A stretch of DNA of 64,000 nt from NCBI RefSeq assembly GCF_000025725.1, contig NC_013943.1, forward strand, positions 2,790,001-2,854,000. The letters are read 5' to 3'. The notes under the pieces were generated by a model that made no database searches, was not told the DNA's origin, and saw nothing but the letters and a program-made list of their open reading frames with translations. This document shows positions 14,413 through 56,101 of the stretch, in pieces. Within the stretch, counting starts at the first letter, position 1. Each line of letters opens with the position of its first letter. A program made the position numbers and the translations under genes. This DNA comes from Denitrovibrio acetiphilus DSM 12809. Its GTDB lineage: Bacteria; Chrysiogenota; Deferribacteres; Deferribacterales; Geovibrionaceae.

Positions 14413-14585
14413 TGGCGGAGGCGCACAGGAATCAAAGGATGTCCAATATTGGAGTCTTATATCCACCAAAGTAGCACTCAGCAAGGAACTCCATTTTTGG
14501 AGTCTCGCCTCAGACTCGCGAATTTGCTCCAATATTGGAAAAAAATGGCAGAAATTTGGCAGAAAATATTTGGTCTTTTCGACCT
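14413..14585 (+). repeat. 173-bp palindrome-rich dispersed repeat, copy A
   Basis: A stretch about 83% identical (by eye) to 55929-56101, same orientation. It contains three palindromes built on TCCAATATTGGA (14442-14453, 14488-14501, 14527-14540) and a tandem TGGCAGAAAT. A fourth related palindrome, ACTCCATATTTGGAGT, lies outside it at 14628-14643. It begins 8 bp after the cowN stop codon. It fills most of the 355-bp gap between cowN and the lipoprotein gene; the rest shows no gene. Confidence 0.8.
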
Positions 14586-33123: not shown

Positions 33124-33921
33124 CTATACAACACCCAGTCCTTCTATACTTGCGCTGAGACTATCCAAATTCCTAACGATATTTGCCTCAATCGAAATAG
33201 GCTTCACTTTGCTGCTATAGTGGTGGCTCAAAATGATATTAACAAGCTTTTCTTTTAAATTTACAGGGAAGTCTTTTAAGTCACATACCTTGTTTAAAAA
33301 TAATTCAGCCCCCATAGTGACATGACCAATTTTACGCCCTCTATCTGTCATGAACATATCATACCCTTCAACCTTGTAACACAGAGCCTTGCCTATATCA
33401 TGCAGAAACAGCCCTAACAGAAGAGTACTTTTATCAATATCATACTTAAACAAACTGCTCTCACACAAACTCAAGCCAAACTCCATAGCCTCCACCGTAT
33501 GAACCAAAAGACCTGACATATGAGCATGGTGGCTGTTCAAGCTAGCAGGGACAAGAAAAAAACTGCTTATAATATCTGGCTCCCTGTAAATACTCATGAA
33601 TACTTCATGACAGTTATCCTCACTAATGTACTTAATGATTTCATGAAACCTTGTAGTATAATCTACATACAACTGTACAAAACTGATCATCAGCCTTTGT
33701 ACGCTAATGAAAGACTTACCGTCGTTTACCATTCTAAAGCCATAAAGACTAACGGAGTCAGTTTGATCCAAGATTTTAAGACAATGAGCTACATCATTAT
33801 AGCAATAGGCTATTTCTGCCCCTTGTTCCCCTTCAACAATAATCCTCAGATATTCAGCACCGTTTTTACTTATCCTAAGCGTTCTATCAATTACCTTAAA
33901 GTCTCCTAAAAATTTATTCAT
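33124..33921 (-). CDS. OB-fold/HD-domain phosphohydrolase, YhaM-like
   Basis: A 265-residue protein. An OB-like N-terminal part (residues about 1-85) is followed by an HD domain with HHAHMSGLLVHTVEAM, LFLHDIGKA and KIGHVTMGAELF, and a late HH pair (ILSHHY). This layout matches YhaM-type 3'-5' exoribonucleases and relaxase-associated HD proteins. Start behind AAGGAG; it overlaps the integrase end by 8 bp, so the two are co-translated. Its role in the mobile module is unknown. Confidence 0.75.
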   Translation of the reverse strand: MNKFLGDFKVIDRTLRISKNGAEYLRIIVEGEQGAEIAYCYNDVAHCLKILDQTDSVSLYGFRMVNDGKSFISVQRLMISFVQLYVDYTTRFHEIIKYISEDNCHEVFMSIYREPDIISSFFLVPASLNSHHAHMSGLLVHTVEAMEFGLSLCESSLFKYDIDKSTLLLGLFLHDIGKALCYKVEGYDMFMTDRGRKIGHVTMGAELFLNKVCDLKDFPVNLKEKLVNIILSHHYSSKVKPISIEANIVRNLDSLSASIEGLGVV

Positions 33922-35074
33922 TATCCTCTCCTTTAATATTTGAATATATGCCACCAATTATTGAGCCGTCTTTTCTCTCTAGGCTTGGAATATACCGAGT
34001 GTACGTTGTTAAAGTTGTTTTAAGGTTTGAGTGCCCCAACATACGGGAAACCCATAAGATATCCTCACCGTTTTTAATCGCCATAGATGCGAAAGTGTGC
34101 CTAAGCTGATACGCTGGGCGAGATACTATATTTTTCAGCTTTAGTACCCTGTGGTACTTTTGCCTGAAATTTTCCCAACAGATTCTTCGATTAAATTCAT
34201 TTACAAAAACGTATTCACTATCAATACCTTTATCTAGTTGCTGTAGTAGCAGAACTTCCAGAGGCTCAGTCATATCGATATCCCTGACACTGCTATCTGT
34301 TTTCAGAAGTGTTTCTTCACCAAGGACAAAACCTTCACGTATTAATATTTTTCTATTTTCCCAATCGATCTTATCCCACTTCAACCCGACAACTTCGTTC
34401 GGGCGACAGCCGGAAAATGCAAGGAAGGCCACAAAACTCTCATATGCAGGATACTTTTCAGCAAAGCCAACTAGTAATCTAGCTAGCTCTTCTTGGTTGA
34501 AGGGTTTAATATCTACCTTCTCGTTTCGGAGGTATTTTACTTTCTTGAACGGTGACTCTTTCAGATGACCCTCTTCAACAACTTCGTTAAAGAATGAACG
34601 TACCGAACGGAGCTTTCTATTAACCACAACATTGCGGTTAACCTTTGACATCACTGTCATCATCATACGAATATCTTTTTCTGTGATATCACCAAGAAGC
34701 TTATGTCCAATATAAGGCGATATGTGATTCCGATGAAAAGAGAGCATCGTCCGCCTTGTATTTTTTGCTATATGAGTCTTATGGTCGATCCACTCCAGAT
34801 ACAGCACATCAAATGTTGCCGTCAGGAACCTGTCAACCTCCAATTCTTCCTTAGGCTTTTGAAACAATCCAAGCCCCGGAAATATCTGTTTAAAGTCGAC
34901 TTCTCCGAGTCCAAGCTTCTCTCCTTTGATGGCACCATCCAGCAAGTTAATTTTTGCTTCGAGTATTGCTCTATTATGAGCTGTGTTGCTCAGACCAAGA
35001 TATACTCGCTTCCTTTTCCCTCTGTACGAGAAGTCTATATAAAGAACGTCTTTATCAACTCTTATAGATGCCAT
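33914..35074 (-). CDS. int: Tyrosine-type site-specific integrase
   Basis: A 386-residue phage-like integrase. The N-terminal arm- and core-binding regions are followed by the catalytic domain with Arg in SGCRPNEVVGLKW, HxxR represented by QLRHTF, the LGHS motif and the nucleophile in TTYTRYIP. All catalytic positions are present, apart from Gln in place of the first His. It probably integrated part of this island. It overlaps the excisionase-like gene by one base and the HD gene by 8 bp. No tRNA or att core could be identified nearby. Confidence 0.88.
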   Translation of the reverse strand: MASIRVDKDVLYIDFSYRGKRKRVYLGLSNTAHNRAILEAKINLLDGAIKGEKLGLGEVDFKQIFPGLGLFQKPKEELEVDRFLTATFDVLYLEWIDHKTHIAKNTRRTMLSFHRNHISPYIGHKLLGDITEKDIRMMMTVMSKVNRNVVVNRKLRSVRSFFNEVVEEGHLKESPFKKVKYLRNEKVDIKPFNQEELARLLVGFAEKYPAYESFVAFLAFSGCRPNEVVGLKWDKIDWENRKILIREGFVLGEETLLKTDSSVRDIDMTEPLEVLLLQQLDKGIDSEYVFVNEFNRRICWENFRQKYHRVLKLKNIVSRPAYQLRHTFASMAIKNGEDILWVSRMLGHSNLKTTLTTYTRYIPSLERKDGSIIGGIYSNIKGEDNE

Positions 35075-35781: not shown

Positions 35782-38700
35782 TTACCTATACTTTTTAAAA
35801 TTCTCAGCCTGCTCAAAGATTTCTTTATAAACCTCGTCTCTGTCTACTGGCGGATAATCATTTTCCGCAAGCAGCACAACCAGGTCAGCTTTAAGCTCCG
35901 CCTTTATGTCAGTTCTCTGGCTCCAGTCTGTGTACTTAGCTTTATCATCCACCACTTGCTTCACTTCTTTTGCCAATGCTAGAAGCTTATCTTCTGGATA
36001 GGTGAAGTCATATTTGATCGCTAGAGCCTTCAGGATGTCATAGAAAGCCTTTTCTTCAAAATCTATTCCCATTTCGTTGAAAGATTCTTTCTCTTTCTTA
36101 AGGGCATTATATAGATCAATGATCTCATCCGTGAAATCTTCCAGGACGCTGCTGACAAGGATACTATCTTCCTTGCGTTCGTTATATTTATCAACTAGGG
36201 CCTTAAACTTTTTAGAAAAATCTGTCCCTTTCATTTTATTAATTTTCTTAAAGTCATTGATTGCCTTTGTAAGAAGCTGCTGCAGTAACTTAATCTTGGT
36301 ATTAGGCAGCTTTATCTTGTCAATTTTCGCCATATAATTATCATCAAAGATGTCGATTTCCTGCCCCTGATCCTCACCGAGCTTCAGTATCTCTTCTACC
36401 CCGTCACTTTGCAGTGCTTCTTTGATCATCTTCGTCACAACTGCATTCATCTGTGCGGTGTCCGGAGCGTCACCCTTGGTCAGCTTGAAGACGATAGACC
36501 TCACAGCTAGATAAAAGTGAATAAGGTCTCTTTCTGCCTGAGAGAAGGCATCACTGCCGCAACATATATCATATGCCGCCTTCAGCCTTTTCACTAAATA
36601 CATGAAACGCTTTTCAAGCTCCTGCGTCACCTGGACAAACTCAGCTGCCATATTCAGACAATGAAGCTGTTCAAGCGCTGAACCCTGAAAATACGGTATG
36701 GTATTGAATTTATGGAATATCTTTGACAATAAATCCAAGTGGTCTTTGACTACCACAATGGACTGCTCAATCTCTTCAATGTTTGACTGGTCAGCTTTTG
36801 AGTATATAGCAAGAGCCATATTCATTTGACTCTTGATACCTATGTAGTCAACAACCAGCCCTTTTTCTTTCCCCTCATATTTCCTATTCACACGGGAGAT
36901 AGTTTGTATCAGGCTATGCCTCTGAACTGGTTTATCGATATACATAGTATCAAGAAATGGTACATCGAAGCCTGTGAGCCACATGTCTACAACAATGGCT
37001 ATTTTGAAATTGGACTTCCCATTCTTAAACTGACGGTCAAGCTCTTTCCGGTAGTCTTTGCTACCTAGCATATCATAGAGCTCTTTAGGGTCATCTTTAC
37101 CTCTGGTCATGATCATCTTGATACGTTCCATAGGTTTGATTTCTTTCTGCTCTTTCTCGGAAAGTTCCACGCCTTCTTCACAAACTCTTACTTCTGCCCA
37201 TGATGGCCGAAGTGCTACTATTTCCTTATAAAGCATGTAGGCAATTTGCCTATTGCTGCAAACAAACATAGCCTTGCCTTTAACGGTCGAACCTTCTTCC
37301 AATCGTTTTTCGTAATGCTCTACAAAGTCCACAGCTATGGCTTTTATCCTGTCAGGGTCTCCGAGGATACTATTCATTTGGGCGGTGGCTTTCTTGCTTT
37401 CTTCTATCTGATAATCGCTGGCGCCTTCCTCGGCGCATTTATTGTAGTATTCTTCAATCTCTTTAAGCTTGCTGTTATCCAGAAGCACTTTTGCCGCTCT
37501 TCCTTCGTAGACTATGCGAACAGTTATCTCGTCCTGAACAGACTCGTTCATGGTATAAGCATCAACAACCTCGCCAAACACATCTAGTGTCGCATCAATA
37601 GGCGTCCCGGTGAATCCCACGTAGGTAGCATTAGGCAGAGAATCATGGAGATACTTGGCAAAACCGTATGTCTTTCTGACACCGTTTTCTGTAATCTTGA
37701 TTTTCTGGTCTAGATTCACCTGACTGCGGTGAGCCTCATCTGAGATGCAAATTACATTGCTTCTGTCAGTAAGTAGTTCGGTATCTTCAGTAAATTTATG
37801 TATAGTTGTAAGAAACACGCCTCCGCTATCACGACCTTTTAACAAGTCACGGAGGTGCTGCCTGCTCTCAACACTTATTACGTTTTCATCGCCAATATAC
37901 TTCTTCCCACCGGTAAATTGGCCAGAGAGCTGATCATCAAGGTCAGTGCGGTCGGTGATAAGGACAATTGTAGGGCTGGAGAAATCCAGACTTTTCATAA
38001 GCAGTCTGGTGAGAAACAGCATGGTAAAGCTCTTCCCGCAGCCGGTAGCTCCGAAGTATGTACCGCCTTTTCCGTCTCCATGCGGGCGGCGTTGTTTGAG
38101 TATGTTTTTGTACAGCTTAGTCGCTGCGTAATATTGCGGATATCGGCAAAGAACTTTTTCTTCTCTGGATGATGAGTCAGGGAAATAAATAAAATTCCTT
38201 ACTATTTCCCTCAGCCTATCTTTATCAAACATCCCGTTGATCATAGTAAAGAGGGAATCAATTCCATCTTTCTCTATGGACTCATCTCCGGTTATCTTCC
38301 GCCATGAATAATAAAATTCATAAGGGGCGAAAAAGGAACCGGCTTTATTATTTACTCCATCACTGATTATGCAGAAGGCATTATATTTGAAGAGCTCTGG
38401 GATGTCCCTTCTGTAGCGTACTGTTAGCTGTATGAAAGCATCATGGACAGTAGCCTCTTCTCTTATGGCGCTTTTGAACTCAAACACCACAAGTGGCAAA
38501 CCGTTTATATATAATATCCCATCAGGGATTCGCTTTTCATAGCCAACAATCTCAAGCTGATTAACTACTTTATATATGTTTCTATCTTCTTCAGAATAAT
38601 CTAGAAGTTGAATGAACAGGTCTTTCTTGGTACGGTCTTCACGCTTAAACGAAAATCCGTCAGATATCATCCTTATTATAGTTTTGTTGGTTTCATATAG

Positions 38701-38922
38701 GTCGGAGGCAGGAAAAAGTTCCAACTGGCGGATTATGGTTTCTATCTCTTCACTGGTTATGCTTTCACCTGAATATCTATCTGACAGATAAGCTCTGAGG
38801 TCATCTTTGATAATTACATCCGACAGTTCACGTGCAATATTCTCACCCGGGACATACTCGTAACCTTTCTGCCCTAAGAGCTCAATAATTGCCTTCTCTA
38901 GTTTGTCTTCAGTGAATTTCAT
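35782..38922 (-). CDS. hsdR: Type I restriction enzyme, R subunit
   Basis: A 1046-residue HsdR. The N-terminal nuclease domain has PDGILYINGLPLVVFEFKSA (D...ExK). The translocase follows with Walker A GATGCGKS near residue 295, DEAH as CISDEAHRSQ, and helicase motif III in GFTGTP. The C-terminal part is helical. It cuts DNA after long translocation when hemimethylation is absent. It is the last gene of the operon and is separated from hsdS by three inserted genes; about 85 bp follow the last of these. Confidence 0.95.
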   Translation of the reverse strand: MKFTEDKLEKAIIELLGQKGYEYVPGENIARELSDVIIKDDLRAYLSDRYSGESITSEEIETIIRQLELFPASDLYETNKTIIRMISDGFSFKREDRTKKDLFIQLLDYSEEDRNIYKVVNQLEIVGYEKRIPDGILYINGLPLVVFEFKSAIREEATVHDAFIQLTVRYRRDIPELFKYNAFCIISDGVNNKAGSFFAPYEFYYSWRKITGDESIEKDGIDSLFTMINGMFDKDRLREIVRNFIYFPDSSSREEKVLCRYPQYYAATKLYKNILKQRRPHGDGKGGTYFGATGCGKSFTMLFLTRLLMKSLDFSSPTIVLITDRTDLDDQLSGQFTGGKKYIGDENVISVESRQHLRDLLKGRDSGGVFLTTIHKFTEDTELLTDRSNVICISDEAHRSQVNLDQKIKITENGVRKTYGFAKYLHDSLPNATYVGFTGTPIDATLDVFGEVVDAYTMNESVQDEITVRIVYEGRAAKVLLDNSKLKEIEEYYNKCAEEGASDYQIEESKKATAQMNSILGDPDRIKAIAVDFVEHYEKRLEEGSTVKGKAMFVCSNRQIAYMLYKEIVALRPSWAEVRVCEEGVELSEKEQKEIKPMERIKMIMTRGKDDPKELYDMLGSKDYRKELDRQFKNGKSNFKIAIVVDMWLTGFDVPFLDTMYIDKPVQRHSLIQTISRVNRKYEGKEKGLVVDYIGIKSQMNMALAIYSKADQSNIEEIEQSIVVVKDHLDLLSKIFHKFNTIPYFQGSALEQLHCLNMAAEFVQVTQELEKRFMYLVKRLKAAYDICCGSDAFSQAERDLIHFYLAVRSIVFKLTKGDAPDTAQMNAVVTKMIKEALQSDGVEEILKLGEDQGQEIDIFDDNYMAKIDKIKLPNTKIKLLQQLLTKAINDFKKINKMKGTDFSKKFKALVDKYNERKEDSILVSSVLEDFTDEIIDLYNALKKEKESFNEMGIDFEEKAFYDILKALAIKYDFTYPEDKLLALAKEVKQVVDDKAKYTDWSQRTDIKAELKADLVVLLAENDYPPVDRDEVYKEIFEQAENFKKYR

Positions 38923-39006: not shown

Positions 39007-41034
39007 TTATATTAAAAGCTCTGGTGGCACGGGATGAATCAGCCCACGTTTGCGCCATCGATTTCTATTTACTAACGAATCAAACTCTACCCCATTTGAA
39101 AGTATAAGGTCATCTGCATGATCGGTAACAATGATCTGTGGACAAAAACCATTTTGTTGCTCAATCTTATTGCAGTATATAGATAACTGGCTAAACAGGT
39201 TTTCTACCGCTTGAATATCTTCGTCGACAGGTCGATCATTTTTTGTTCGTTGCTCCTTTTCCTGTTTTTTTTGTTCATCAAAGGATTCAGAATCATCACG
39301 ATTGAAGTTTGGAAAATACACCTGTGTTGGCTGATCTAAAAAGAGGAGTGACGGTATTGAACATTTGTCACCCAATTGGACAAAGTATTCATGCAATGCT
39401 AGAAAAAGAGTCACATGGCTATATAACCAATTTGCACCGCTTCCCATTGACCTTAAATAAATTTCTTCATTCTTCGGCGTTAAGTGATAGAGGTCAAATG
39501 TTTCAAAAGAAAAATGTAGGTTTATTGGTTTGTAGCTGTCTTCAAACTCAAAATGGCTACCGATTTCAGCCATATATTCATTGACCTTTTTAGAAGCATT
39601 TTCTAACTCTTTTTGTACATCGTATTTTTTTAAGTCTTTGTTGATATCATTAAGCTGTTTGTTTCGTGCTTCGATTTGCTTTTCAAGCTCAGAATCATCT
39701 GTCATATTAAGAGTATCGAGAAGCATAATTAACTTAGCCTTCTGCATCAAAATGCTTTCATACAGACTCTTTTTTTCTGTAAGTTGGTTTTCTGATTTTT
39801 CAATTTCTGTTATCTGATGGTTTAGTGTGGCTAACTCGCTTCGAACAATTTCAATGTTTCGATTTACATCAACTAACGATGATTCAAATTTTGCTTTTAT
39901 AGGACGTGCTTGTGCTAGATTTCCCGACACCTTGGTGATAGCTTGCTGTAGTTTTACGGCACTTTCTCGTAATGTATCTTTTTCTGTATGGCAAAATGGA
40001 CAGATTGAAGCAGAGATATAGACATTTTTGGGTGAACTAAACTGTTTTATATTACAAACAAAACTTTTTTCTTCTTGAATGTGTTTGTTTAATGATGCTG
40101 CATCTCTTTGCAACTTTCTTAGATCCGATGTTTTTTGAGTCCTCTCCAACTTTAACTTGTTATATCGTTGGCTAACAGCATCAGAATCATAAATAATTTC
40201 TTCTGATACAATAATTTTGTCAAGTTGATCCTGTGCATCTTGTGGATGGCGAAGTACTTGCTGCAAAGAGAGTGGTTCTTCTTTAAATCCCATAAGAGCA
40301 TACATTTGGCTCAAAACTGGGCCAATTCTTTCCTTGTACTTTTCAGCAGCACGTTTGTTCGTCTCTTTTTGACGTGCCAAACGCTTAACTTCTATACTTA
40401 GCCTTTCTTTCTCTTGTGACAAGTGAAAGTATTTTTGATCAACTAAGCCTAAAAATATCTTGGTATGATCAATTGCCTGGTCACGTTTTTCCTTTTCATC
40501 AAAACGGTAAAACAAAGCATGTTTATTAGCTACGAGATTCTGGTGCTGAAGTATAAATGATGAAAAGCTGCGTATTGATGGCGTTGCTGCTTTAGCATTA
40601 GACCGTCTATTGGCTCTAGCAGCTAGCGATTCATCAACATCATCTATATCCAGGAAAAACTCTCTTAAGTGTTTCTTGAACTCATCTAAAGGACGAAAAT
40701 AGTTACTACTGAAGTAACCGCGATCAATATCCTCAGGATTAAACGATTCAACGCGACGAAAAAAAGCTTTATTTGTGATTTCAGGATTGCGAGCGATAAC
40801 CATATCTTGATCATTAATAGAAAGAGCAACATAATAAATAGCGGCGCAATCGGTAATAATGCCCTTCGGAATGGTATTTTCACGACTGCCGAAGCAGTAA
40901 TCAAAGATTTCAATTAGGGCACTTTTACCCGTCGAGGATTTACCCGTAACAACATTTAGACCCTTTTTAAAACTAACAGGGTGTTTTATCCCATGTTTTT
41001 CAATAACGCCAATTTCATAAATTAATGTTCTCAT
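39007..41034 (-). CDS. ABC-3C system ATPase (DUF3732-like)
   Basis: A 675-residue SMC-like ABC ATPase. Walker A is GKSSTGKSAL near residue 35. Two long coiled coils flank a CPFC zinc-hook-like tip near residue 343. The signature MGSGANW and Walker B LLFLDQP follow near residue 560, and VTDHADD is the H-loop region. This matches the DUF3732 type in ABC three-component conflict systems. It overlaps the small middle gene by 4 bp (ATGA), so the three genes are translationally coupled. Confidence 0.85.
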   Translation of the reverse strand: MRTLIYEIGVIEKHGIKHPVSFKKGLNVVTGKSSTGKSALIEIFDYCFGSRENTIPKGIITDCAAIYYVALSINDQDMVIARNPEITNKAFFRRVESFNPEDIDRGYFSSNYFRPLDEFKKHLREFFLDIDDVDESLAARANRRSNAKAATPSIRSFSSFILQHQNLVANKHALFYRFDEKEKRDQAIDHTKIFLGLVDQKYFHLSQEKERLSIEVKRLARQKETNKRAAEKYKERIGPVLSQMYALMGFKEEPLSLQQVLRHPQDAQDQLDKIIVSEEIIYDSDAVSQRYNKLKLERTQKTSDLRKLQRDAASLNKHIQEEKSFVCNIKQFSSPKNVYISASICPFCHTEKDTLRESAVKLQQAITKVSGNLAQARPIKAKFESSLVDVNRNIEIVRSELATLNHQITEIEKSENQLTEKKSLYESILMQKAKLIMLLDTLNMTDDSELEKQIEARNKQLNDINKDLKKYDVQKELENASKKVNEYMAEIGSHFEFEDSYKPINLHFSFETFDLYHLTPKNEEIYLRSMGSGANWLYSHVTLFLALHEYFVQLGDKCSIPSLLFLDQPTQVYFPNFNRDDSESFDEQKKQEKEQRTKNDRPVDEDIQAVENLFSQLSIYCNKIEQQNGFCPQIIVTDHADDLILSNGVEFDSLVNRNRWRKRGLIHPVPPELLI

Positions 41035-41483
41035 CTTGGTTTCACTCCTAAAAACGCATAAATTTCGACCACAGAGTGACCTTTGAATAATTTACCTAAC
41101 TGTTCAGCTCTTTTTTGATTGATGCATGTTGAATCAGATTTATCACATGCACTAATAGATAGATTTTGTTCGTTTACGGATAACCAGTCATTTATCAAAC
41201 AATAATTAATGCACTGTTCTGTTAATTCTTGAAATTCGTCGATTCGTTCTTGTAGATCATATAGTTTTGTGCGATCCTCGAAGATCGACCACATAGAGCT
41301 TCTAATATTAGAATTGTGTATTTTTTGACCAAAGAAAGGGTGACTGCATAGCGGTATCACCAAAGAAGCAAGTAAAAGATTATTCTCTGATTCGTCTAAT
41401 GTAGCGTAAAACGAACTAAGATATGCCCCATATTCGAACGGGTTGTACTTAAGCTCATATAATGTTTCAATAATACTACTCAT
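41031..41483 (-). CDS. ABC-3C middle component
   Basis: A 150-residue helical protein beginning MSSIIETLYELKYNPFEYGAYLSSFY, with no catalytic motif. The size, position between the nuclease-like gene and the ABC ATPase, and general pattern match the middle components of ABC-3C systems, which link sensor and effector. Start is the ATG behind GGAAGG; it overlaps the upstream gene by 8 bp. The family call rests more on context than on motifs. Confidence 0.7.
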   Translation of the reverse strand: MSSIIETLYELKYNPFEYGAYLSSFYATLDESENNLLLASLVIPLCSHPFFGQKIHNSNIRSSMWSIFEDRTKLYDLQERIDEFQELTEQCINYCLINDWLSVNEQNLSISACDKSDSTCINQKRAEQLGKLFKGHSVVEIYAFLGVKPR

Positions 41484-42609
41484 TATCAACCTTCCATTTT
41501 AAGTCACGCTCTTCATCATCCATAGCATCGTGAATTAGACCATTCTTGTATTCAAGTGGAGGTATATCATTACCCATATTCAGTGGTTGCTCTCCTATGG
41601 TCTTGTTATAAAGCAATTTTGAGCTTTTAATTGGATCAGTTGCTTCAAGTTTTGCACTTGAATAGGCGAGCTTATATTTTTTGACCAATTGGTTTTGGTA
41701 ATTTATTGTCTTATCTTTATAGAGAGGGTACTCATCCAGCTGTTCAAAAAGTGAGTTTTGTAATTCAAGCCAATTGCCTACAGCTTCAGGAATCATTTCG
41801 TGGTGCTCAATCTCATTAATCTTTTGAACAAAAGCTCTGTCATTATGCTGTTCTACATCCTGTTCAGAAGCTTCAAATCCATGAAATACGGGAAAGGAGA
41901 ATTCCTTTTTACACAGCAAAGAGGTCAATTCTTCGCACTTCGCAACAAATTCTTGATATTTGATGCTCCAAGACTGTTGAGTTGCCTGTGCATATACAAA
42001 GCCAATAAGTCCATACAAGTAGCTTTTTAGGTTATTTTTGGGAATGCCTATCGGTTTTGAAAGTATTTGTTTTTCCAATTCGTCACCATTATCAGCTTGC
42101 GTATATAATGTGACCTTGCCAAGGATATTTTTTAGAAATAATTTATCTGCCGCCATGACTTCTTTTTGTAATTTAATGATTGCAGAAGGTTCTTTAGCAT
42201 TTAACTGAGCTTTAGTTCGTTCAGCAAAAATAGTTTCTAGTATTTCCAGACGTTTTTGTGCGCTAACTAAGTTCCACTCTTTTAGGCGAGTTGTGGCACC
42301 GAATACTTGTGTAGTGTGAAGTACTAAAGCTCCATATTGAGTGTGATCAAACTCTGGTGCTAACCAATTTTTTAAAGTCTTCCAAAGGTTTTCGTGATGA
42401 TCAGTTAATGGAGCTGCATAATTTTTAACTTCAGTCTGTGTTGACTGCGCAGTGCTTGATGAAAGCAAACTTACATCCCCATCTCTTTCAAACCAAATAG
42501 ACTGCCCATCTTCAAGCGAAAAGCACTTGTCTAGACCTATCAATACTTGATAATGAAAAGCTAAAGCTGTTGTTAATGTGGCATTTTTGGTTTTAGTTAT
42601 CTCACTCAT
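41476..42609 (-). CDS. ABC-3C C-terminal component with PD-(D/E)XK-like N-terminus
   Basis: A 377-residue protein. Residues about 40-67 read IWFERDGDVSL, then QTEVKNY: the acidic-strand-ExK layout of a PD-(D/E)XK nuclease. The remaining 300 residues are helical and resemble the C-terminal scaffold domain of ABC-3C effectors. It is the first gene of the three-gene set and probably the DNA-cutting effector. Start at an ATG (or the GTG just before) behind GGAG. Confidence 0.72.
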   Translation of the reverse strand: MSEITKTKNATLTTALAFHYQVLIGLDKCFSLEDGQSIWFERDGDVSLLSSSTAQSTQTEVKNYAAPLTDHHENLWKTLKNWLAPEFDHTQYGALVLHTTQVFGATTRLKEWNLVSAQKRLEILETIFAERTKAQLNAKEPSAIIKLQKEVMAADKLFLKNILGKVTLYTQADNGDELEKQILSKPIGIPKNNLKSYLYGLIGFVYAQATQQSWSIKYQEFVAKCEELTSLLCKKEFSFPVFHGFEASEQDVEQHNDRAFVQKINEIEHHEMIPEAVGNWLELQNSLFEQLDEYPLYKDKTINYQNQLVKKYKLAYSSAKLEATDPIKSSKLLYNKTIGEQPLNMGNDIPPLEYKNGLIHDAMDDEERDLKWKVDNE

Positions 42610-42732
42610 CACGTGGTCTCCAATTCATTACTTACACCATAGTTTGGCAATGTACTGTTGAGTACCGTGTAAGAATACGATAAGCCCATCCCTCAACAGT
42701 TCCTAATTGGTATTGAATGGTTTCGGCAGCAA

Positions 42733-44022
42733 TTAGCATTTAGTTGCCTCCGCTTTGATCATTTTCTGAAGCAAGAGTATACGAGCCTTCAAAAGATATT
42801 CGCTTTGAGCGGATAAATTTTCCTTGTAGCAAATAAGGCTATCGGTAATCTCCTCGAAGCTTTTCATAGAATCGTTCTTGGGGATCAATATCTCAAATTC
42901 TTCAATATCACCTTTTGTAATTGCTTGTCTTGTTGATCCAGCTTCGCTGGATCCAAGTAGCTTTTGCTTGTAGATGGCAGAGCAGAGCGTAAATAGCAGG
43001 TAGCTTGATGACAATTTTTCGGGTTCCACCCTAACGATTGATACGTGCTGATTCACTCTAGCAGGTAATACATTAGAAGGAACTCTACAGCATCGAGCAA
43101 CAGATACGCCCGTAATATTGAGAAGAACGTCTTTCTCCTTAACTTCAACATTATCCAGCTTAGTAGCCTGGGTACTATCTATAAATGCGAGATCCCTATA
43201 TTGGAAATTGTAATCATGCACGTTAAGGCTTCGAATGAGAGAGATTCCAGATTTTTTGTAGGCAGATTTCCCTCCGCATGGAGTTGAGCCACTTCCTATT
43301 TTTGTGCATCTATTACTGAGCGTATCGTATTTCCATTCATCTGGAACATCTTGGTCTAGGTCATTATTCCATACCATTTTACCGCCGGAAGATCTGTATG
43401 GTTTGCCTTCCAGTTCTGGTTTGCCGATGGACTGTGCATATTCGGCTGTAATGGGAAATTCAAAATCTACGAACCAGTGTTTATAAAGAGTCTGTGCAGT
43501 TTCCTCAAGCTTTTGGCTGAGCTGTTCATTCAGCTTTATTCGATTAACAATTGTGTTGTATTCATCCACTATCTGCTGCTGCTTATCAGGATTAGGTACA
43601 GGCAGCTCAATATTACAAAAATCTTCCCACTCAAGACTCCCTCTTACACCACCAACAGCATAAAAACACGCTTCTCTGTCAAACTCTGATCTGCTCATCC
43701 ACATCATTAAATATTCAGGTAATAATTCACAGTCGTCTATTATCTTAAAAACTGGATACGCTTGAGATATAATTGCCTCATCAAAATCAGTTAACAAAGC
43801 TACTGGAATTTTTCCATCTCTTCTGACCTGCATTAAGCTACATGCAAATTGACCTTTCTTGATAATCTTATATTTGCTCATATCTGAGCCCACAATATTG
43901 GCTACTGAAGGGATAAATATTTTATCCACAGTAAGCCCAAGTAATGTATTAACTTTTAAATCGTTATTACGCTTATCTACAAGCTGGATGTAGTTTCCAA
44001 TCTTCTTATAGTTCGATTTCAT
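42733..44022 (-). CDS. hsdS: Type I restriction enzyme, S subunit
   Basis: A 429-residue specificity subunit with two target-recognition domains (about residues 1-140 and 225-370), each followed by a helical spacer (central: VDEYNTIVNRIKLNEQLSQKLEETAQTLYKHWFVDF; C-terminal: LSAQSEYLLKARILLLQKM). Each domain reads half of a bipartite site that cannot be predicted here. It overlaps hsdM by 17 bp. Confidence 0.93.
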   Translation of the reverse strand: MKSNYKKIGNYIQLVDKRNNDLKVNTLLGLTVDKIFIPSVANIVGSDMSKYKIIKKGQFACSLMQVRRDGKIPVALLTDFDEAIISQAYPVFKIIDDCELLPEYLMMWMSRSEFDREACFYAVGGVRGSLEWEDFCNIELPVPNPDKQQQIVDEYNTIVNRIKLNEQLSQKLEETAQTLYKHWFVDFEFPITAEYAQSIGKPELEGKPYRSSGGKMVWNNDLDQDVPDEWKYDTLSNRCTKIGSGSTPCGGKSAYKKSGISLIRSLNVHDYNFQYRDLAFIDSTQATKLDNVEVKEKDVLLNITGVSVARCCRVPSNVLPARVNQHVSIVRVEPEKLSSSYLLFTLCSAIYKQKLLGSSEAGSTRQAITKGDIEEFEILIPKNDSMKSFEEITDSLICYKENLSAQSEYLLKARILLLQKMIKAEATKC

Positions 44023-45571
44023 AACCTAACTCTTTGAAAACTTTAAGCAATTCAGCTTTTGATTTTTCTTCTCCTTTCAGAAGCTCAGTAAAATCATCCT
44101 TAAGACTCCTCATCTTTTCATCAAAATCTATATCCTCATCCCTGTTAACGAACTCAATATATTTACTAGGGACGAGAGAGAAGTCTTTTGCTTTGATCTC
44201 ATCAAAAGTTGCTGAATAACAGTATTCGGGTACATTATCAAATTCGTCATGAAATTGTTTTGTCTGCCATGTATGGAATGTTCGTGCAAATCTTTTTATA
44301 TGGTCTTCGTGAAACTGAATGTATTTTTTCTCAAAGGGCTCGCCTTCCTGACGTAAATCCATAAACAGAACTTCTTTCTCTCTACTCCTATACTCTCTAG
44401 TTGAATCAGGAATATTAACAACTCGCTCTTTTTTATTCTTGTTTATTATCCAGAGTGTTACACTAATATTTGTTGTATAAAACATGTTTTGAGGCAGAAT
44501 TATTATCGCCTCAACAAGGTTATTCTCTATTATCTTCTTACGTATTTTATACTCGTCTCCACCACCAGACAGAGCACCATTCGCAAGAATGAAGCCAGCA
44601 ACACCGTTTTCAGAAAGCTTAGAAACCATATGAAGGATCCAGCCATAGTTAGCATTTCCAACAGGAGGAGTCTCATATCCATTCCAGCGAGGGTCACTTG
44701 TCAGTTCGGTACCTGCACGCCAATCTTTTTGATTAAAAGGTGGGTTAGCCATAATATAATCTGCTTTCAGGTCTGGGAACTGGTCATTAAGAAATGTATC
44801 TTTACCGATCTCACCAAGGTTTGCAGAAATCCCCCTGATAGCAAGGTTCATCTTAGCCAGTTTATATGTTGCCGCTGTTAGTTCCTGACCGTAGATAGAA
44901 ACATCTTTCCTGTTGCCTTTGTGGGCATCGATGAACTTCATCGACTGGACAAACATACCGCCAGAACCACAGCAGGGGTCATATATCTTTCCTTTGTAAG
45001 GTTCGATCATCTCAGCTATAAGATTTACTATACTCTTCGGAGTATAGAATTCTCCTTTCCCTTTACCTTCTGCCAGAGCAAATTTACTGAGAAAGTATTC
45101 ATATACCTTGCCAACGATATCCCGCTCTTTGTCTTTCAGAGTGTCTATGTTGCTTATGGTGTCAATGAGTGCGGCAAGCTTGCTTGTCTCAAGCCCCAGT
45201 CGGGAGAAGTAATTATCTGGAAGAGCTCCTTTAAGAGCTGCATTATTCTTTTCAACTGTGGAAAGAGCAGTATCAACTATCAGAGCTATATTGCTTTGTT
45301 TAGAGTTCTTTTTGATATGACTCCAGCGTGACTCCTCTGGCAGATAAAACACATTCCTCATGGTATAAAACTCCACCATGTCGGTGTACTTTTCTTTGCC
45401 CTCAGCTATCAGTTCTTTCTTTCGCTCTTCAAATTTATCACTGGCAAATTTCAGGAATATCAGACTCAATACCACATGCTTATACTCCGAAGGTTCTACA
45501 CTCCCTCGAAGCTTATTAGCTGAATCCCATAAGATTTCTTCATCTCTTTTGCCGTTTTTCTGTTTTGCCAT
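44006..45571 (-). CDS. hsdM: Type I DNA methyltransferase, M subunit
   Basis: A 521-residue N6-adenine methyltransferase. Motif I is DPCCGSGGMF near residue 197 and motif IV is NPPFNQKDW near residue 277. The N-terminal helical region (LWDSANKLRGSVEPSEYKHVVLSLIFLKFASD) is typical of HsdM. It is the first gene of the RM operon, 128 bp after the recombinase trio in the same direction. Confidence 0.95.
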   Translation of the reverse strand: MAKQKNGKRDEEILWDSANKLRGSVEPSEYKHVVLSLIFLKFASDKFEERKKELIAEGKEKYTDMVEFYTMRNVFYLPEESRWSHIKKNSKQSNIALIVDTALSTVEKNNAALKGALPDNYFSRLGLETSKLAALIDTISNIDTLKDKERDIVGKVYEYFLSKFALAEGKGKGEFYTPKSIVNLIAEMIEPYKGKIYDPCCGSGGMFVQSMKFIDAHKGNRKDVSIYGQELTAATYKLAKMNLAIRGISANLGEIGKDTFLNDQFPDLKADYIMANPPFNQKDWRAGTELTSDPRWNGYETPPVGNANYGWILHMVSKLSENGVAGFILANGALSGGGDEYKIRKKIIENNLVEAIIILPQNMFYTTNISVTLWIINKNKKERVVNIPDSTREYRSREKEVLFMDLRQEGEPFEKKYIQFHEDHIKRFARTFHTWQTKQFHDEFDNVPEYCYSATFDEIKAKDFSLVPSKYIEFVNRDEDIDFDEKMRSLKDDFTELLKGEEKSKAELLKVFKELGYEIEL

Positions 45572-45698: not shown

Positions 45699-47993
45699 CT
45701 ATAATTTTGATATTAATTCTATCACATTTTTTTTAAGCCGCATACCATGTGGTTTTTGTGTAAAAGTCTCTCTATGAAGGGTATTATCATTTACTCCTTG
45801 TATTAAATTACATATTTGCTTTGATGTCATATACTGTCTTCCATTATCAGCTTCTCTGATAAAATACTCCGCAAAGAAATCAAGCGTATGGATATACCTC
45901 TCTATCGTTGTTTCCGGCCCGGCATGCCCCATAAACTTTGCAAGATTATGGAATAGTGTAGACCGGCGATAACCCGTACCAATTAACTTCTGAAACCTAC
46001 CCAAGTCGCTTGGAGGTACATGTAAACTTCTAAAACCTGTAGGAAGGTATTTCTTAGCCCCCGGGTAGTAAATTAGCATCAGCTCAGTCGCCAGCCATGA
46101 ACAACAGCAATGCCTCAACGAATGAAATGAAAGTGTTTTTTCATTAAACATCTTCTTTAGCAGAGTGGCTATATTCTGTATATATGGCGAGAGATCTTGT
46201 GCGATCAGTTTGTAGTTAAGCTTACCCTTCTTTTCACCAAGACGTTTATTCCAATAATTTTTTATTATTTTTCTATGGTGTTCAGGAACCATATGCTCGA
46301 TAGGGACATTGCGCCTGCCTGCTGCTGTCTTTGATTTTGCTACTCTTATAATAGCCTCTATGTCAAAATTGAAACTGTGCAAATGCAGTTTTCCTATTTC
46401 AAAACGACGCAATCCACAATAGAAACCTAAAATGCATAACAATTCTATAATCTTATATGCTTCTGCTGTTTCATGCTTTTTAATCTCTTCTAAACACATG
46501 TCTAACTCGAGTGGAGTTATAAGGAGCGGCTTAACATTAGAAGATGTACCCTCGAGCTCCGGAGACTTCAGAAACTCATTTATGATACTTTTATCATCAG
46601 TCCGTTTCGGCAGATACCAAGCCAAAAACGCTTTAACCTTACGAGTCATATTACCGCCGGAGTGTTTTCGCACATCACGATCTACCTGAACAATATCTAC
46701 AAATAAACTATAAAGCTCATCAAAATCGTACTCACTTAAGGGTGTCTCGTCACAAACCTCCATAAGTAACGAACTAAACTTAATATAGTATGTATAAATA
46801 GTTGATACCGCTTTTTTACTGCTGAGCAAATCCATCACATACGCGACAAGCAAACGGAATGTTTCATTACCATTTAGCAACTCTTCATTCCCCTCAATAA
46901 ACCCCTTCATTTCACTCTTAATCTCCTGTTTCCTTTTCTTAGGATTAAGTATTTTCTGGACTTCTTTCATCGCTTTGACATATTGATTACTCATGCTCTG
47001 CTTAACTGGTGGAGCAAACTTCGTTTCTTCTGGTTCATCCTCTGGAACGTCATTCATACTAACACGTTTTTTTCTGTACTCAGCCCAGTTCATATGCTCA
47101 AACCTACTCTGTTTTACTGAGTAATAGTTGACCGACTTGCTTAATACCGTAGAGATCACAGGAGGAATCTTTTCTGAATTACATATTCTGGCTACCTGTA
47201 TGAGTTTAGAATAACTCATCTTTTTATCGTCAAAAAGCTTTACAAGCCACCTGCGGAAGTCATCTGATGTAAAATCTGAAAATGGACATTCATCTTTGTT
47301 TTGTTTCAATATGATTGCCAGCAGAACCTGAGCTGTTAAAGACAAAGGGACTCGTACGGATCTATTTTCAAGTTTCTTATCTTCTGCTGTTATCAGATAC
47401 GTATGCTCATATTTTATCTCATATGGCTTGTCCTCGAACTGGCTTCTTTTGACAACCCTAAGTGACTTTATGAGATTTGGAAATGTAACAAACGACTGAG
47501 TCACAATTGCAAATGCAAATGCACAGCAAAGTTCATTGTAGTAATCATTCTGCTCATAAATCTCAGCAGCAAGATATCTCGTTGCGAATTCTTTGCTGAT
47601 CTTCAAATACTTATTTCTTTGCTGAACAGCATCCTCACTAAATTTAAAAGATAATTCCCGAACCTCCTTCTTCGGTATCGAAGGTATTTTGCAGTCCAAA
47701 ATATCTTGTTCATTCAGATATTTTATAAAAGAGCACAGAACCCTTTGCGTGATATTATCTGCCTCATTTTCGTTGAGGATTTTCATTTTTTTGATGTACT
47801 TTCGGAGGCGATCTTCCTCTATTGTAACTGGCAACTTTTTATTAGTCACAAGAGGGTAAAGCACCTCATCAATTTTATGGAGAGTATCTATTTCTATCTC
47901 AATATTCTTATTCCGTTTACTATTCTGCTCACATTCCATACGCACACACAAAGCGGCGTGGTAATCACGTACACAATCAATATATATATTCAT
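45699..47993 (-). CDS. Large tyrosine recombinase (trio gene 3)
   Basis: A 764-residue protein with a tyrosine recombinase domain in its C-terminal third: Arg in GFYCGLRRFEIGKL near residue 527, HSLRH near residue 625, MGHAGPE near residue 687 and the nucleophile in ERYIHTLD near residue 698. All catalytic residues are present. The first 400 residues are unlike standard integrases. It is last in a tightly packed three-gene operon (4-bp overlap). It resembles in plan the multi-recombinase modules of Tn554-like, RIT or Gamma-Mobile-Trio elements, but sizes and order do not let me assign it. Confidence 0.82.
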   Translation of the reverse strand: MNIYIDCVRDYHAALCVRMECEQNSKRNKNIEIEIDTLHKIDEVLYPLVTNKKLPVTIEEDRLRKYIKKMKILNENEADNITQRVLCSFIKYLNEQDILDCKIPSIPKKEVRELSFKFSEDAVQQRNKYLKISKEFATRYLAAEIYEQNDYYNELCCAFAFAIVTQSFVTFPNLIKSLRVVKRSQFEDKPYEIKYEHTYLITAEDKKLENRSVRVPLSLTAQVLLAIILKQNKDECPFSDFTSDDFRRWLVKLFDDKKMSYSKLIQVARICNSEKIPPVISTVLSKSVNYYSVKQSRFEHMNWAEYRKKRVSMNDVPEDEPEETKFAPPVKQSMSNQYVKAMKEVQKILNPKKRKQEIKSEMKGFIEGNEELLNGNETFRLLVAYVMDLLSSKKAVSTIYTYYIKFSSLLMEVCDETPLSEYDFDELYSLFVDIVQVDRDVRKHSGGNMTRKVKAFLAWYLPKRTDDKSIINEFLKSPELEGTSSNVKPLLITPLELDMCLEEIKKHETAEAYKIIELLCILGFYCGLRRFEIGKLHLHSFNFDIEAIIRVAKSKTAAGRRNVPIEHMVPEHHRKIIKNYWNKRLGEKKGKLNYKLIAQDLSPYIQNIATLLKKMFNEKTLSFHSLRHCCCSWLATELMLIYYPGAKKYLPTGFRSLHVPPSDLGRFQKLIGTGYRRSTLFHNLAKFMGHAGPETTIERYIHTLDFFAEYFIREADNGRQYMTSKQICNLIQGVNDNTLHRETFTQKPHGMRLKKNVIELISKL

Positions 47994-50086
47994 TTGATCA
48001 CCTCATATCCGCATTCCGCTAATAACTTGCTTTGCATTGTAATAATCTCTAACTGAACCTCCGGCATATCAGCAAATGAAAATATGTTATTCAGTTCAAT
48101 CCCATCAGTAACATGCCCAAGCCAGTAATTTGCAATCTCATAATCAAAGTTCTTTTGCATAAGATTTGTTCGCAAAAAGTGCCTGCAAAAGTTCATGACA
48201 ATGCAGTTCCTCTCAATGCCTATTCTGCTTAGATAGCGAGATTCAACTGTACCCTTGTCGTAATATCCAAGCTTATCCTTATGACCTAGATGATAAAGAA
48301 GATCAGTCAGCTCAAAATATTCATAAACAGGTGTTATATACCCTGCAATACTGACAGTTTCTCGATATCGTTTCAGTATTCTGAATTGTTCTTTTATGTC
48401 ATCACACAAATCTACAATTCTATGCTCTTGCTTTCTTTGGCTGTCTTTATCTCTCAAAATTACATGACTGAAATCTGACGCTATCAAAGATTTTGATTCC
48501 GACGCAATACGCCGCAGGGAGCTTGTAAGCTGCAGTCCTATATACGTATAGAATGAAAGGATATTGAGCTTTTCTTTTAGCTTAATTTCTGAGTAATACA
48601 GCTCTCGTATATTCTTAAAAATATATTGCATTGTCTCTACTTCTGGTACAGCTCTACTGCCATAATTTTCATTGTAAACACACGCTTGTTCTGGAAGCAT
48701 GGTAAGCTCTGTGAAACCAAGCCTATGCAGCAGCTCGGAAACAACATCTGCAAATCGATTCCCTATATATTCTGCTGAAATACGTGTGTAAAACGTCTGA
48801 GTAAAAGAAGTTTCTGCGAATGTATTTGAAATATACGCGATAGTCAGGTCATTCTGTCCGCAGACATCAGAAGCAAATGCTCTGAAAAATTTTCTGATTC
48901 GAGCCGGTGTAATGTGCGTGTAATTAATATGATTAAATGCATTGATATGCTCTTTTATATCATTCAAAGACAGCCTTTCTGGCAACTCTATGCTCTGTAC
49001 GAGTTCACATAAAAACGCTGGCAGTACAACTTTCACCTTAAGACGAGTGTTCTGACTATATCGCGACATGCTCTTAAAGCTCTTGCTATGATATCCTACT
49101 TTATGCAGATGAAACCAATAGTAGTCCTTGTCTTCACTTAGCTTTATGCTTCGATATTTATTACCACGTAATATCTTCGACCAGTCATCGACATCAACGC
49201 CACTCAAAGCCGAAAGTATAAGAAGAGCCGTGATAGGATGCTGCCTTCTTTGATAATCATCTAACAACTTTTTCATTTCATGAAGCTGAACGACATCATA
49301 GTCATAGATGCTTACAACTCGAGATTGACGAACGAACTGCGTGGTCTTTTCATAGAAATACTTCTTTACTTCAGATGTGGGACAATATGTCCACGCGGGT
49401 ACTATATAGTTTCTAACTGAGTTATCAGCTGATACTTCAACCTGTGAATGGCTTGCACTTAAGATTTGAAGATACGAATTATCTCCACCATGACTTTTGA
49501 TCCGAAAAAACTTACGAATCCTCTTGCCACAGATTCGAGTATAAGAGTTCCCCTCCTCCCAAGCATCATGCATTATTTTATCAAAGCGCTCTATATGCTT
49601 TTCATCTTGTTCTACGATCGTATCCAGCATGTCAGAAAAGATTATCTCGTGGATATTAATCACTTTTCCTGTCCTTTGCAGATATGCATCAGCACTTGCA
49701 ACAAATACACGGGCAGCCAATGAGGCATTATAAAATCGCTGGTGGATGTTATTGGGATACTGCTTATCGAAATCAACAAGTTTATGATGTATCTCATATG
49801 CGTAATACTGATAAGCTTCGTGCTGGCAAGCATCTATATGAAATCCAATCAGTATATTCTGATCAGACTTATTAAGCGTTTTCCCTACTTCGATAGAAGT
49901 AAAATGTTCATAAAGACTCGCCACATATTCAATTGAAATATCATCTAACTCGTCATCGTCAAATGACTCATGCAGCCAGTATATTATCGCTGGTAAAAGC
50001 TCATCGTAATTCTCTTTAGCAAGTGGAAGGGGGCACTGGATAAAATCCAGTGCCTCCATGATTCTTTTAGTGACTAGCTCTTGCAT
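47990..50086 (-). CDS. Recombinase-like protein lacking the catalytic tyrosine (trio gene 2)
   Basis: A 698-residue protein. The C-terminus keeps recombinase-like features: SSLRRIASE, NFCRHFLRTNLM near residue 635 and YWLGHV near residue 655. Where the nucleophile is expected the text reads NNIFSFADM, with Phe and no Tyr. It is probably a structural or regulatory partner of gene 3. Ribosome site GGGGTGAT; the upstream gene ends 4 bp before its ATG. Confidence 0.68.
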   Translation of the reverse strand: MQELVTKRIMEALDFIQCPLPLAKENYDELLPAIIYWLHESFDDDELDDISIEYVASLYEHFTSIEVGKTLNKSDQNILIGFHIDACQHEAYQYYAYEIHHKLVDFDKQYPNNIHQRFYNASLAARVFVASADAYLQRTGKVINIHEIIFSDMLDTIVEQDEKHIERFDKIMHDAWEEGNSYTRICGKRIRKFFRIKSHGGDNSYLQILSASHSQVEVSADNSVRNYIVPAWTYCPTSEVKKYFYEKTTQFVRQSRVVSIYDYDVVQLHEMKKLLDDYQRRQHPITALLILSALSGVDVDDWSKILRGNKYRSIKLSEDKDYYWFHLHKVGYHSKSFKSMSRYSQNTRLKVKVVLPAFLCELVQSIELPERLSLNDIKEHINAFNHINYTHITPARIRKFFRAFASDVCGQNDLTIAYISNTFAETSFTQTFYTRISAEYIGNRFADVVSELLHRLGFTELTMLPEQACVYNENYGSRAVPEVETMQYIFKNIRELYYSEIKLKEKLNILSFYTYIGLQLTSSLRRIASESKSLIASDFSHVILRDKDSQRKQEHRIVDLCDDIKEQFRILKRYRETVSIAGYITPVYEYFELTDLLYHLGHKDKLGYYDKGTVESRYLSRIGIERNCIVMNFCRHFLRTNLMQKNFDYEIANYWLGHVTDGIELNNIFSFADMPEVQLEIITMQSKLLAECGYEVIK

Positions 50087-50089
50087 ACA

Positions 50090-51109
50090 TCACCCCAAAA
50101 CCGGCATGATCGCATGCTTATAAAGCTTACTCTTTGTTTTTGCACATTTGTCACTACTTGCTACACAATAGCGTCCATCAAGCACAAACTTAAATTCCTC
50201 AACGCCAATATTTGCATGGAAAACCCCATTGTTTTTAGATATCGTTGTGCGATTTTCGGTTATATCACCCTTAGGGTTTTTGCTAAAAGTATTGACGATT
50301 CCCCGGTTAAGAGAATCATTCAGATTGATGTATATAATCAGAGAGCAAAGATCAAAACAGTAAAAGTTCTGGTTTTTGGCTACCATAAACGATGTCTTTT
50401 CGATAACGTTTGACGTATCTTCATATACTTTATATTTATCTCCATAAATAGGTTTGTAATTCAACAACTCCGCTGATCCATCAGTTATCAGCTCAAGCAG
50501 CCTGATACGCCCTGAGGAGTCAAAAGACACCTCAACTTCATCCCCATCAAGACATAGCCAGTGTGCCTTTAAGACAAAATCTGCAGTTTTATGCCGCTTT
50601 TTCTTCTTACCTTTGTCCTGCGCAAAGTTGAATATTGTCGCATGTTTGAAGATTGTAAGCATGTCAGCCACTTTCTCTTTAGTTGTAGCTCCGCTGTCCA
50701 TGAGTAGCATTGCACCTTTTGCAACATCACTTTTCCAAGCATGGCGGACGGTCTCTGCGAGCATGATATTGTAGAGTCCATTATTTGACAGAACCCTCCG
50801 GTACATGTTGTCAAATAAATCCCGCAAAATCAAAGATGCAACATCCTGTGCATCTACAGCCTCCATGATTCTTACACGAACCTTTTCAACACCAACTTTC
50901 AAAGCACATAAATATGTTGCTAATCCATACACCAGATAATAGCCCCTACTATTTTCATAAACAGTTAGCTGATGCGTAACATTACGAAGTTCAAAATCAG
51001 CTTTATCGACCATCGGGGCAAAAGTCAGCTTGTCAATATCTGACCAATACTTCTTATACTCATCTAGCTTTACATCAGCTAGCATCAATAGTTGTGTTCT
51101 AAACTTCAT
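50090..51109 (-). CDS. Unknown protein (trio gene 1)
   Basis: A 339-residue protein that I do not recognise. It is predicted cytoplasmic, alpha/beta, with a KGKKKKRHKT basic patch near residue 183 that could contact DNA. No recombinase motif is visible. The start at MKFRTQLL has GGTGGTG at a fair distance; an upstream in-frame start would add 16 residues. Its position as first gene of the operon suggests it helps the two recombinase-like proteins, perhaps in DNA recognition. Confidence 0.6.
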   Translation of the reverse strand: MKFRTQLLMLADVKLDEYKKYWSDIDKLTFAPMVDKADFELRNVTHQLTVYENSRGYYLVYGLATYLCALKVGVEKVRVRIMEAVDAQDVASLILRDLFDNMYRRVLSNNGLYNIMLAETVRHAWKSDVAKGAMLLMDSGATTKEKVADMLTIFKHATIFNFAQDKGKKKKRHKTADFVLKAHWLCLDGDEVEVSFDSSGRIRLLELITDGSAELLNYKPIYGDKYKVYEDTSNVIEKTSFMVAKNQNFYCFDLCSLIIYINLNDSLNRGIVNTFSKNPKGDITENRTTISKNNGVFHANIGVEEFKFVLDGRYCVASSDKCAKTKSKLYKHAIMPVLG

Positions 51110-51179
51110 AAAACACCACCACGCACCTATATACGTAATTTCTACATACAGCAACATTCGTATGCTCGTATTTATGCAC

Positions 51180-52872: not shown

Positions 52873-52939
52873 AGAAGAGGTGGTCCCAGAAATCTGTACA
52901 GTATGCTAAGGTGGAAAAAGCATATTGGAGGACCACACG

Positions 52940-55766: not shown

Positions 55767-55928
55767 AGAGTTTACTCACTAACATAATAGGTTATAGTAG
55801 CATCTTTTTTGTTCTAAAAGCAAACAGTCATAATAATGACGACCGACACGAAACTAAGGCCACATTTGGGCAGAAGGATTTTGGACACATTTGTAAGATA
55901 TTGATAAATTGACAGAATAAAATTTAAT

Positions 55929-56101
55929 GGCGGAGGAGCACAGAAAGCAAAGAGTGTCCAATATTGGAGCGTTATGTCTCCGAAAGTAGCACTCAGCAAG
56001 GGATTCCATTTTTGGAGTCTCGTTTCATATTTGTGGATTTGCTCCAATTTTGGAAGAAAATGGCAGAAATTTGGCAGAAAAATAATTGATCATTTCGACC
56101 T
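55929..56101 (+). repeat. 173-bp palindrome-rich dispersed repeat, copy B
   Basis: The second copy of the repeat at 14413-14585, same orientation. It holds GTCCAATATTGGA, TTCCATTTTTGGAG, GCTCCAATTTTGGA and tandem TGGCAGAAAT. IS3 element 3 starts one base after it, so any further homology may have been cut off. It fills the gap between the GHKL gene and that IS; no gene is seen. Confidence 0.8.

Follow-up and report, generated by a model that had tools for sequence, protein, structure and literature searches.

Why should a bacterial operon pair a large and apparently complete tyrosine recombinase with a second recombinase-like protein that has phenylalanine where the nucleophilic tyrosine belongs? 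The question is raised by three packed genes, here called A, B, and C, in Denitrovibrio acetiphilus DSM 12809 (assembly GCF_000025725.1, contig NC_013943.1), within a stretch of 64,000 nucleotides (forward-strand positions 2,790,001 to 2,854,000) that is referred to below as the window and numbered from its first letter. The explanation favored here, with a confidence only slightly above even, is that the three genes form one recombination module of islands inserted at tRNA genes, in which C would cut the DNA, B would act mostly as a binding partner, and A would be an accessory. Within it, B and C most probably make up a heteromeric recombinase.

A trio of this kind had been proposed from the letters of the DNA alone (the sequence-only reading), and the open reading frames (ORFs) agree with it: all three genes lie on the minus strand and have the lengths proposed (Table 1), with a gap of 3 bp between A and B and an overlap of 4 bp between B and C. 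The longest ORF of gene A spans 50090-51157 and has 355 codons counted from its first ATG; the start at 51109 is most likely, because homology with the congeneric genome G002 begins at 51108. The same trio was then found in other genomes, with homologues of the genes together: the A-B-C order is shared by two congeners and by members of several other genera, which argues against a chance arrangement.

Of the three proteins, only C has the full set of tyrosine recombinase residues (R529, K555, H624, R627, H628, H690, and Y700), as the sequence-only reading had it. This R-K-H-R-H-Y set, together with a match to the Pfam family Phage_integrase (E 2e-8), places C, by prediction, in the tyrosine recombinase superfamily. 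Among 34 C sequences, the Arg-I, Arg-II, His-III, and Tyr columns are invariant (34/34), Lys is kept in 32/34, and His-II in 27/34. C is much longer than a plain recombinase, and by eye its first third (46960-47700) resembles a degenerate recombinase domain, for which profile comparison gave no backing. Searches of PDB sequences returned no relative of B or C.

B has no meaningful family match in Pfam, NCBIfam, or PADLOC, and it aligns to the recombinase pattern. From its alignments and its structure model, it is best read as two tandem recombinase domains with complementary losses, the first carrying the catalytic fold as judged by structural comparison and the second by a profile match to recombinases (probability 87%). 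In domain 2, R525, K547, R635, H636, and H658 are present in all 34 aligned sequences, and Asn occupies the His-II position in all 34. The phenylalanine pointed out in the sequence-only reading is indeed there: F669 stands beside the motifs NxxRH (632-636) and GH (657-658). The nucleophile column of the 34 sequences holds F 11 times, Y and H 7 times each, and other residues in the remaining 9. A tyrosine at this position, absent from the window protein, is thus present in a minority of homologues that includes the nearest one, from congener G002, and its loss is typical of the B family without being universal. A different assignment, with R639 as Arg-II (motif NxxRHxxR), was rejected; Arg-II is R635, so the fused proteins described below keep Arg-II. 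An alignment of nine sequences was too diverse for pattern search.

The AlphaFold model of B has a mean predicted local distance difference test (pLDDT) score of 43, with confident parts at about residues 266-305 and 353-415 and with domain 2 below 50. Residues 258-457 superimpose on the SSV1 integrase (VIA-align) with a Z score of 12.6 and a root mean square deviation of 3.4 over 160 residues, followed by an archaeal Xer protein (Z 11.6), P2 integrase (7.9), topoisomerase IB (6.3), and XerD (5.9). All nine of the top structural matches have recombinase or topoisomerase IB folds; the match after them is unrelated and has a Z score of 5.7. Foldseek alone returned nothing significant for the model, a result not taken to mean that domain 2 lacks a known fold. 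When 32 B proteins were aligned over the domain 1 region, the only fully invariant positions were Tyr433 and, past the domain, Gly476. Profile-profile comparison of the two domains sets Tyr433 on Phe669 (E 0.0016, probability just 16%), with a score of 26.9, whereas 60 column shuffles reached 16.2 at the highest. Domain 1 compared with C by profile scored equally weakly, and the tyrosines were not aligned. Thus, the label "catalytically dead" that the middle protein had been given is right about Phe669 and too simple as a whole, since domain 1 holds a tyrosine invariant in 32/32 proteins.

Tyrosine recombinase tetramers cut two strands at a time via a Holliday junction, and Flp supplies its tyrosine in trans. 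By analogy, the domain 1 tyrosine of B could attack a phosphate bound by the Arg-Lys-Arg-His residues of domain 2, in the same chain or in another, and B with such a split site, often fused in one chain, could work with a complete C to move islands anchored at tRNA genes. This possibility is unlikely, although it deserves attention: Tyr433 is the sole catalytic-type residue invariant in domain 1, which has the catalytic fold; domain 2 keeps R525, K547, R635, and H658 throughout and Tyr in only 7/34; and the profile that places Tyr433 on the domain 2 nucleophile column scores above 60/60 shuffles. Set against this are the constant Asn at His-II in domain 2, the poor two-domain model with domain 2 below a pLDDT of 50, the weak profile E value, and the comparison with C, which leaves the tyrosine off the C nucleophile; an invariant tyrosine could also serve DNA binding or allostery. 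Another proposal, that B derives from a formerly active recombinase and is now decaying, would account for the substituted nucleophile and for in-frame stops in the copy of congener G001. This proposal, already disfavored, is very improbable, as the B ORF is intact in the other complete trios, the pocket residues are kept in 34/34 sequences, and the fusion to C is maintained across many genera.

Protein searches of plasmids yielded homologues in Vibrio, Aeromonas, Acinetobacter, and Ketogulonicigenium, and a genome scan yielded 29 loci. Beyond the two congeners, the A-B-C order is found in Vibrio, Aeromonas, Acinetobacter, Oceanisphaera, Halopseudomonas, and Ketogulonicigenium. Unfused loci long enough to be judged consist of a small A, a B of about 700-790 aa, and a C of about 760-1120 aa, with genes that overlap or nearly abut; the exceptions are L014, where A is not annotated, L030 and L031, whose contigs start inside B, and the V. 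hannami copy (L023), whose B is broken. At every recovered locus with enough sequence, evidently broken copies aside, B is followed directly by C or is fused to it. Fusions of B and C into a single ORF of 1734-1841 aa occur in Parathalassolituus, Denitrificimonas, Marinobacter, Spongiibacter, Zhongshania, Thalassolituus, and an Oceanospirillaceae bin; in 14 such fused ORFs, B is matched by the first half and C by the second. The single protein of about 1800 aa that Marinobacter, Thalassolituus, Spongiibacter, and others encode makes it very probable that B and C operate in one complex, and the fusion strongly backs a single machine. No A gene was identified next to the fused B-C genes. Downstream of most of them, a conserved gene for a protein of about 290 aa lies in the opposite orientation (L034 11972-12850, L038 11656-12522), and at L041 an IS21-like pair (9268-11563) lies inside the fused recombinase gene, the C half of which is missing. 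C as a single-protein query against genome contigs gave no match. Viral contigs searched with three B alignments and phages searched with B likewise gave none, so there is no sign of a phage-borne trio.

Among 146 related genomes searched, a B homologue was found in just two other members of the genus. In congener G002, B is 54% identical and the trio is intact. In congener G001, B is 24% identical, and the in-frame stops in B and C (L007 7785-12201) indicate from the sequence that the trio copy is decayed; the island integrase and HD genes of that genome are still there.

Gene A, too, has no meaningful family match in Pfam, NCBIfam, or PADLOC. The proposal that it is unrelated to anything known is incomplete, as A is not an orphan: its N-terminal part stands where other trios have a first protein of 140-230 aa, and an extra C-terminal part is beta-rich. 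Sequence similarity is very weak (7-17% identity in an alignment with 16 trio-first proteins, except for 60% with that of G002), the structure model is of low confidence (pLDDT 43), and no recombinase motif was found in the sequence. A is probably a DNA-binding accessory.

In other lineages, truncated tRNA 3′ halves, extending up to the anticodon, lie just upstream of the trio. Displaced 3′ halves of this kind are what integration into a tRNA gene would leave behind when the incoming element supplies a new 3′ end. The half belongs to tRNA-Met at most fused loci (none was found at L033 and L046), to tRNA-Gly(TCC) at four chromosomal Vibrio loci, and to tRNA-Asp(GTC) at six loci of the Aeromonas/Oceanisphaera/Zobellella/Halopseudomonas type. 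The same 5 bp, in the CTTCG region that precedes the anticodon stem, are missing from the displaced tRNA-Met half in many islands of the fused clade (L032 5951, L036 6046, L041 6097, L042 5674, L043 6051, L044 6046) and present in the intact tRNA genes; without them, the fragment may be unable to act as a rival attachment site or RNA.

Where both ends of an island were found, an ordinary integrase lies close to the intact tRNA. The Parathalassolituus island (27.7 kb, tRNA-Met) is bounded by a direct repeat of 242 bp at 95.9% identity. Its displaced end is occupied by the fused gene, its ordinary integrase lies some 1 kb away from a pair of intact tRNA-Met genes, and its cargo includes BREX genes (brxL, pglZ, pglX, brxC, brxB, and brxA, named by reading the ORFs). 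The V. hannami island (about 130 kb, tRNA-Gly) has a repeat of 120 bp at 84% identity and an integrase 0.8 kb from the intact tRNA-Gly. In Spongiibacter thalassae, about 75 kb with an integrase inside separates two displaced cores, and S. pelagi retains a decayed 6.4-kb remnant with the same two ends. What lies at G151:C9:240320 is a displaced tRNA 3′ half rather than an intact gene. In other genomes of the fused clade, integrase homologues lie 0.8-1.4 kb from tRNA-Met sequences.

In the window, the island is anchored at selC, which lies 15.4 kb past the window end at a window coordinate of about 79360. The island occupies 14413-55927 (41.5 kb) and includes the trio, hsdM, hsdS, a Lamassu-like operon, an hsdR-like gene, an integrase, and an HD protein (Table 1); 55928-79358 is a second selC unit in tandem. 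No tRNA fragment was found beside the window trio when sought with the tRNA genes of the genome; the islands end at selC. The island of congener G002 also starts at selC, its first 72 bp being the same as in the window, runs for about 28.5 kb to a site 77% identical to its window counterpart, and carries the trio, restriction genes, integrase, and HD protein in the order of the window. Trio and integrase share one reading direction in this genus, which is not so in the other clades. The sequence-only reading suggested that the trio may mobilize the adjoining restriction and ABC-3C genes; the trio alone need not do so, since the island has its own ordinary integrase and selC attachment sites.

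Table 1. Window coordinates of the trio, the domains of B, and the other features of the selC island.
Feature	Coordinates	Strand	Basis
Gene A, 339 aa	50090..51109	-	ORF; start backed by homology with congener G002 from 51108
Gene B, 698 aa, tandem tyrosine-recombinase-fold protein	47990..50086	-	ORF, residue alignments, structural comparison
B domain 1, about residues 258-455	48722..49315	-	Recombinase catalytic fold, no conserved pocket; Tyr433 codon 48788-48790
B domain 2, about residues 500-690	48017..48589	-	Arg525, Lys547, Arg635, His658 kept; Asn632 for His-II; Phe669 codon 48080-48082
Gene C, 764 aa, large tyrosine recombinase with complete catalytic set	45699..47993	-	ORF, Pfam match, residues
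hsdM, about 130 bp after C	44006..45571	-	Homologous to hsdM directly after the G002 trio
hsdS	42733..44022	-	Methylase_S match
Lamassu-like three-gene ABC-3C operon (LmuA, LmuC, LmuB)	39007..42612	-	PADLOC 5e-41, 3e-19, 9e-119
hsdR-like gene of type I restriction system	35782..38922	-	Read from ORF sequence
Ordinary integrase, 386 aa	33914..35074	-	Homologues 0.8 kb from intact tRNA (V. hannami) and 0.8 kb from tRNA-Met sequence (several genomes)
HD-motif protein adjoining integrase	33124..33957	-	HD by eye; also in Aeromonas-type trio islands and both congeners
Attachment-type site with selC 3′ end, selC-side border	55928..56101	-	85% identical over 174 bp to 14413-14585
Attachment-type site, displaced selC 3′ end, far border	14413..14585	-	21-bp exact match to selC 3′ end and 174-bp homology

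Several observations weigh against the favored explanation. In the window genus, a distance of 4-5 kb separates the trio from the selC-side border, and the displaced end is not where it lies, so that the layout differs among lineages; C has Tyr for His-II in 7/34 sequences and Arg for the following His in 3/34; and the recombination activity of the trio is a prediction from its genes. In addition, trios carried by Acinetobacter and Ketogulonicigenium plasmids lie away from tRNA genes, and the trio is thus not restricted to tRNA islands. On A. towneri plasmids, closely related trios adjoin rep, parAB, and type I restriction genes, with no tRNA fragment noted; one A. lwoffii plasmid has only the later part of C, behind IS1. 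Finally, genomes that have a single trio contain many integrase homologues, indicating that the integrase does not need the trio everywhere. The position beside rep and parAB, together with the location of the integrase near intact tRNA genes and its homologues lacking a trio, would fit a trio that serves its replicon, through multimer resolution or maintenance of a circle or plasmid, and leaves all moving to the ordinary integrase. Such a role is judged rather improbable, because in three clades the trio lies directly inside the displaced-tRNA island end, a typical place for recombination genes.

Pairs of related loci bear on whether the trio might instead be a small autonomous transposon nested in islands and plasmids. 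L034 and L035 are 97.9% identical across the element and 71% in the flank, and L020 and L021 are 90% identical over 6.7 kb with different flanks, as a transposon would predict. The lack of any terminal repeats of its own, which were not found, a left border that coincides with the tRNA fragment and hence with the island end, and shared DNA that also stops inside neighboring genes make this reading improbable, if less so than the decay of B.

Under the favored explanation of one module, B and C would be large proteins acting as one complex, in which C would perform strand cleavage and B would bind partner sites and the scissile phosphate, most likely without normal self-contained catalysis. Only part of the assembly could then cut, which would favor a single strand exchange and leave the host to resolve the junction, in line with a proposal made for SE elements (compared below). 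In such an assembly, B might either block the second exchange, favoring replication-linked movement of the kind proposed for SEs, or cut with a split site. A would probably assist by binding DNA. The ordinary integrase elsewhere on the island would probably make the basic tRNA integration, and the trio would assist or bias excision or integration or act at the other end of the island. The gene set, the conservation pattern, and the fusion are observed directly, as are tRNA ends and a linked integrase in several islands and the cargo in some; binding between B and C, their division of labor, the bias toward one strand exchange, and the part played by A are deduced from these.

Other features of the window adjoin these islands. 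Two different IS3-type transposase pairs lie near the selC-side island end (52925-54120 and 56118-57268). A gene for a small helix-turn-helix protein at 51892-52284 matches PADLOC PD-Lambda-2_B (8e-41) over the first part of the model only and is probably a remnant or antitoxin-like. The first 8 kb of the second selC unit hold sugar-nucleotide and glycan export genes, as read from ORFs, and a surface-polysaccharide cluster may thus ride on a selC island.

Relatives of the trio are often on mobile islands at tRNA genes that carry antivirus defenses; with type I restriction, Lamassu-like, and BREX systems as cargo, the module bears on the spread of defense genes. Recombinase-fold partners without catalytic residues are known from SE and GInt elements, where their job is not understood. 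In the trio, fusion of such a partner to the active enzyme across a whole clade makes a working complex very likely, and B shows a clean complementary loss of catalytic parts between tandem domains. A literature search covering few subscription papers found no description of such a module.

The likeness to multi-recombinase elements seen in the sequence-only reading is real, although none of the systems compared has the same gene content. The Gamma-Mobile-Trio (GMT; GmtX, GmtY, and GmtZ) likewise has three genes, one of them for a tyrosine recombinase, and a link to defense cargo. C falls under the recomb_GmtY cut-off (NF040693, 340 bits) and is absent even from the weak matches, the best of which reach about 30 bits at other genes; NF040692 (recomb_assoc), which we take to be GmtX, matches nothing in the window genome or among trio-first proteins. 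By these two models, the trio does not appear to be a GMT. NF040694 was rejected as a GmtZ model because it represents an unrelated family. Tn554 and RIT elements similarly have several recombination genes per operon. In contrast, RIT recombinases are 315-410 aa long and all have the Tyr, and nothing in Tn554 corresponds to the recombinase-fold partner (PMC10214605); B and C have 698 and 764 aa, A is no recombinase, and domain 2 of B has Phe.

SE elements come closer. Their operon intA-tfp-intB-srap encodes Tfp, which has the recombinase fold without catalytic residues, beside two complete recombinases and a small protein, and their circularization uses one strand and leaves no empty site (PMC10214605). 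Compared by description rather than by sequence, SEs share with the trio a recombinase-fold partner, a large tyrosine recombinase, a small accessory, and target specificity, and differ in having two RHRY recombinases and imperfect inverted repeats (PMC10214605). The trio has C as the only complete recombinase in its operon, the small gene first, long direct repeats at tRNA ends, and B-C fusions. GInts, with ginABCD encoding two complete recombinases, GinC without catalytic residues, and the small GinD, resemble the trio in an operon at one end of a genomic island, a noncatalytic GinC, and variable cargo, their small protein being the last (PMC5385486). The GInts described in pseudomonads have repeats of 10-11 nt at an ABC transporter gene (PMC5385486), in contrast to the tRNA targets of the trio, which has three genes rather than four, two recombinase-fold proteins rather than three, a single complete recombinase, and a separate ordinary integrase.

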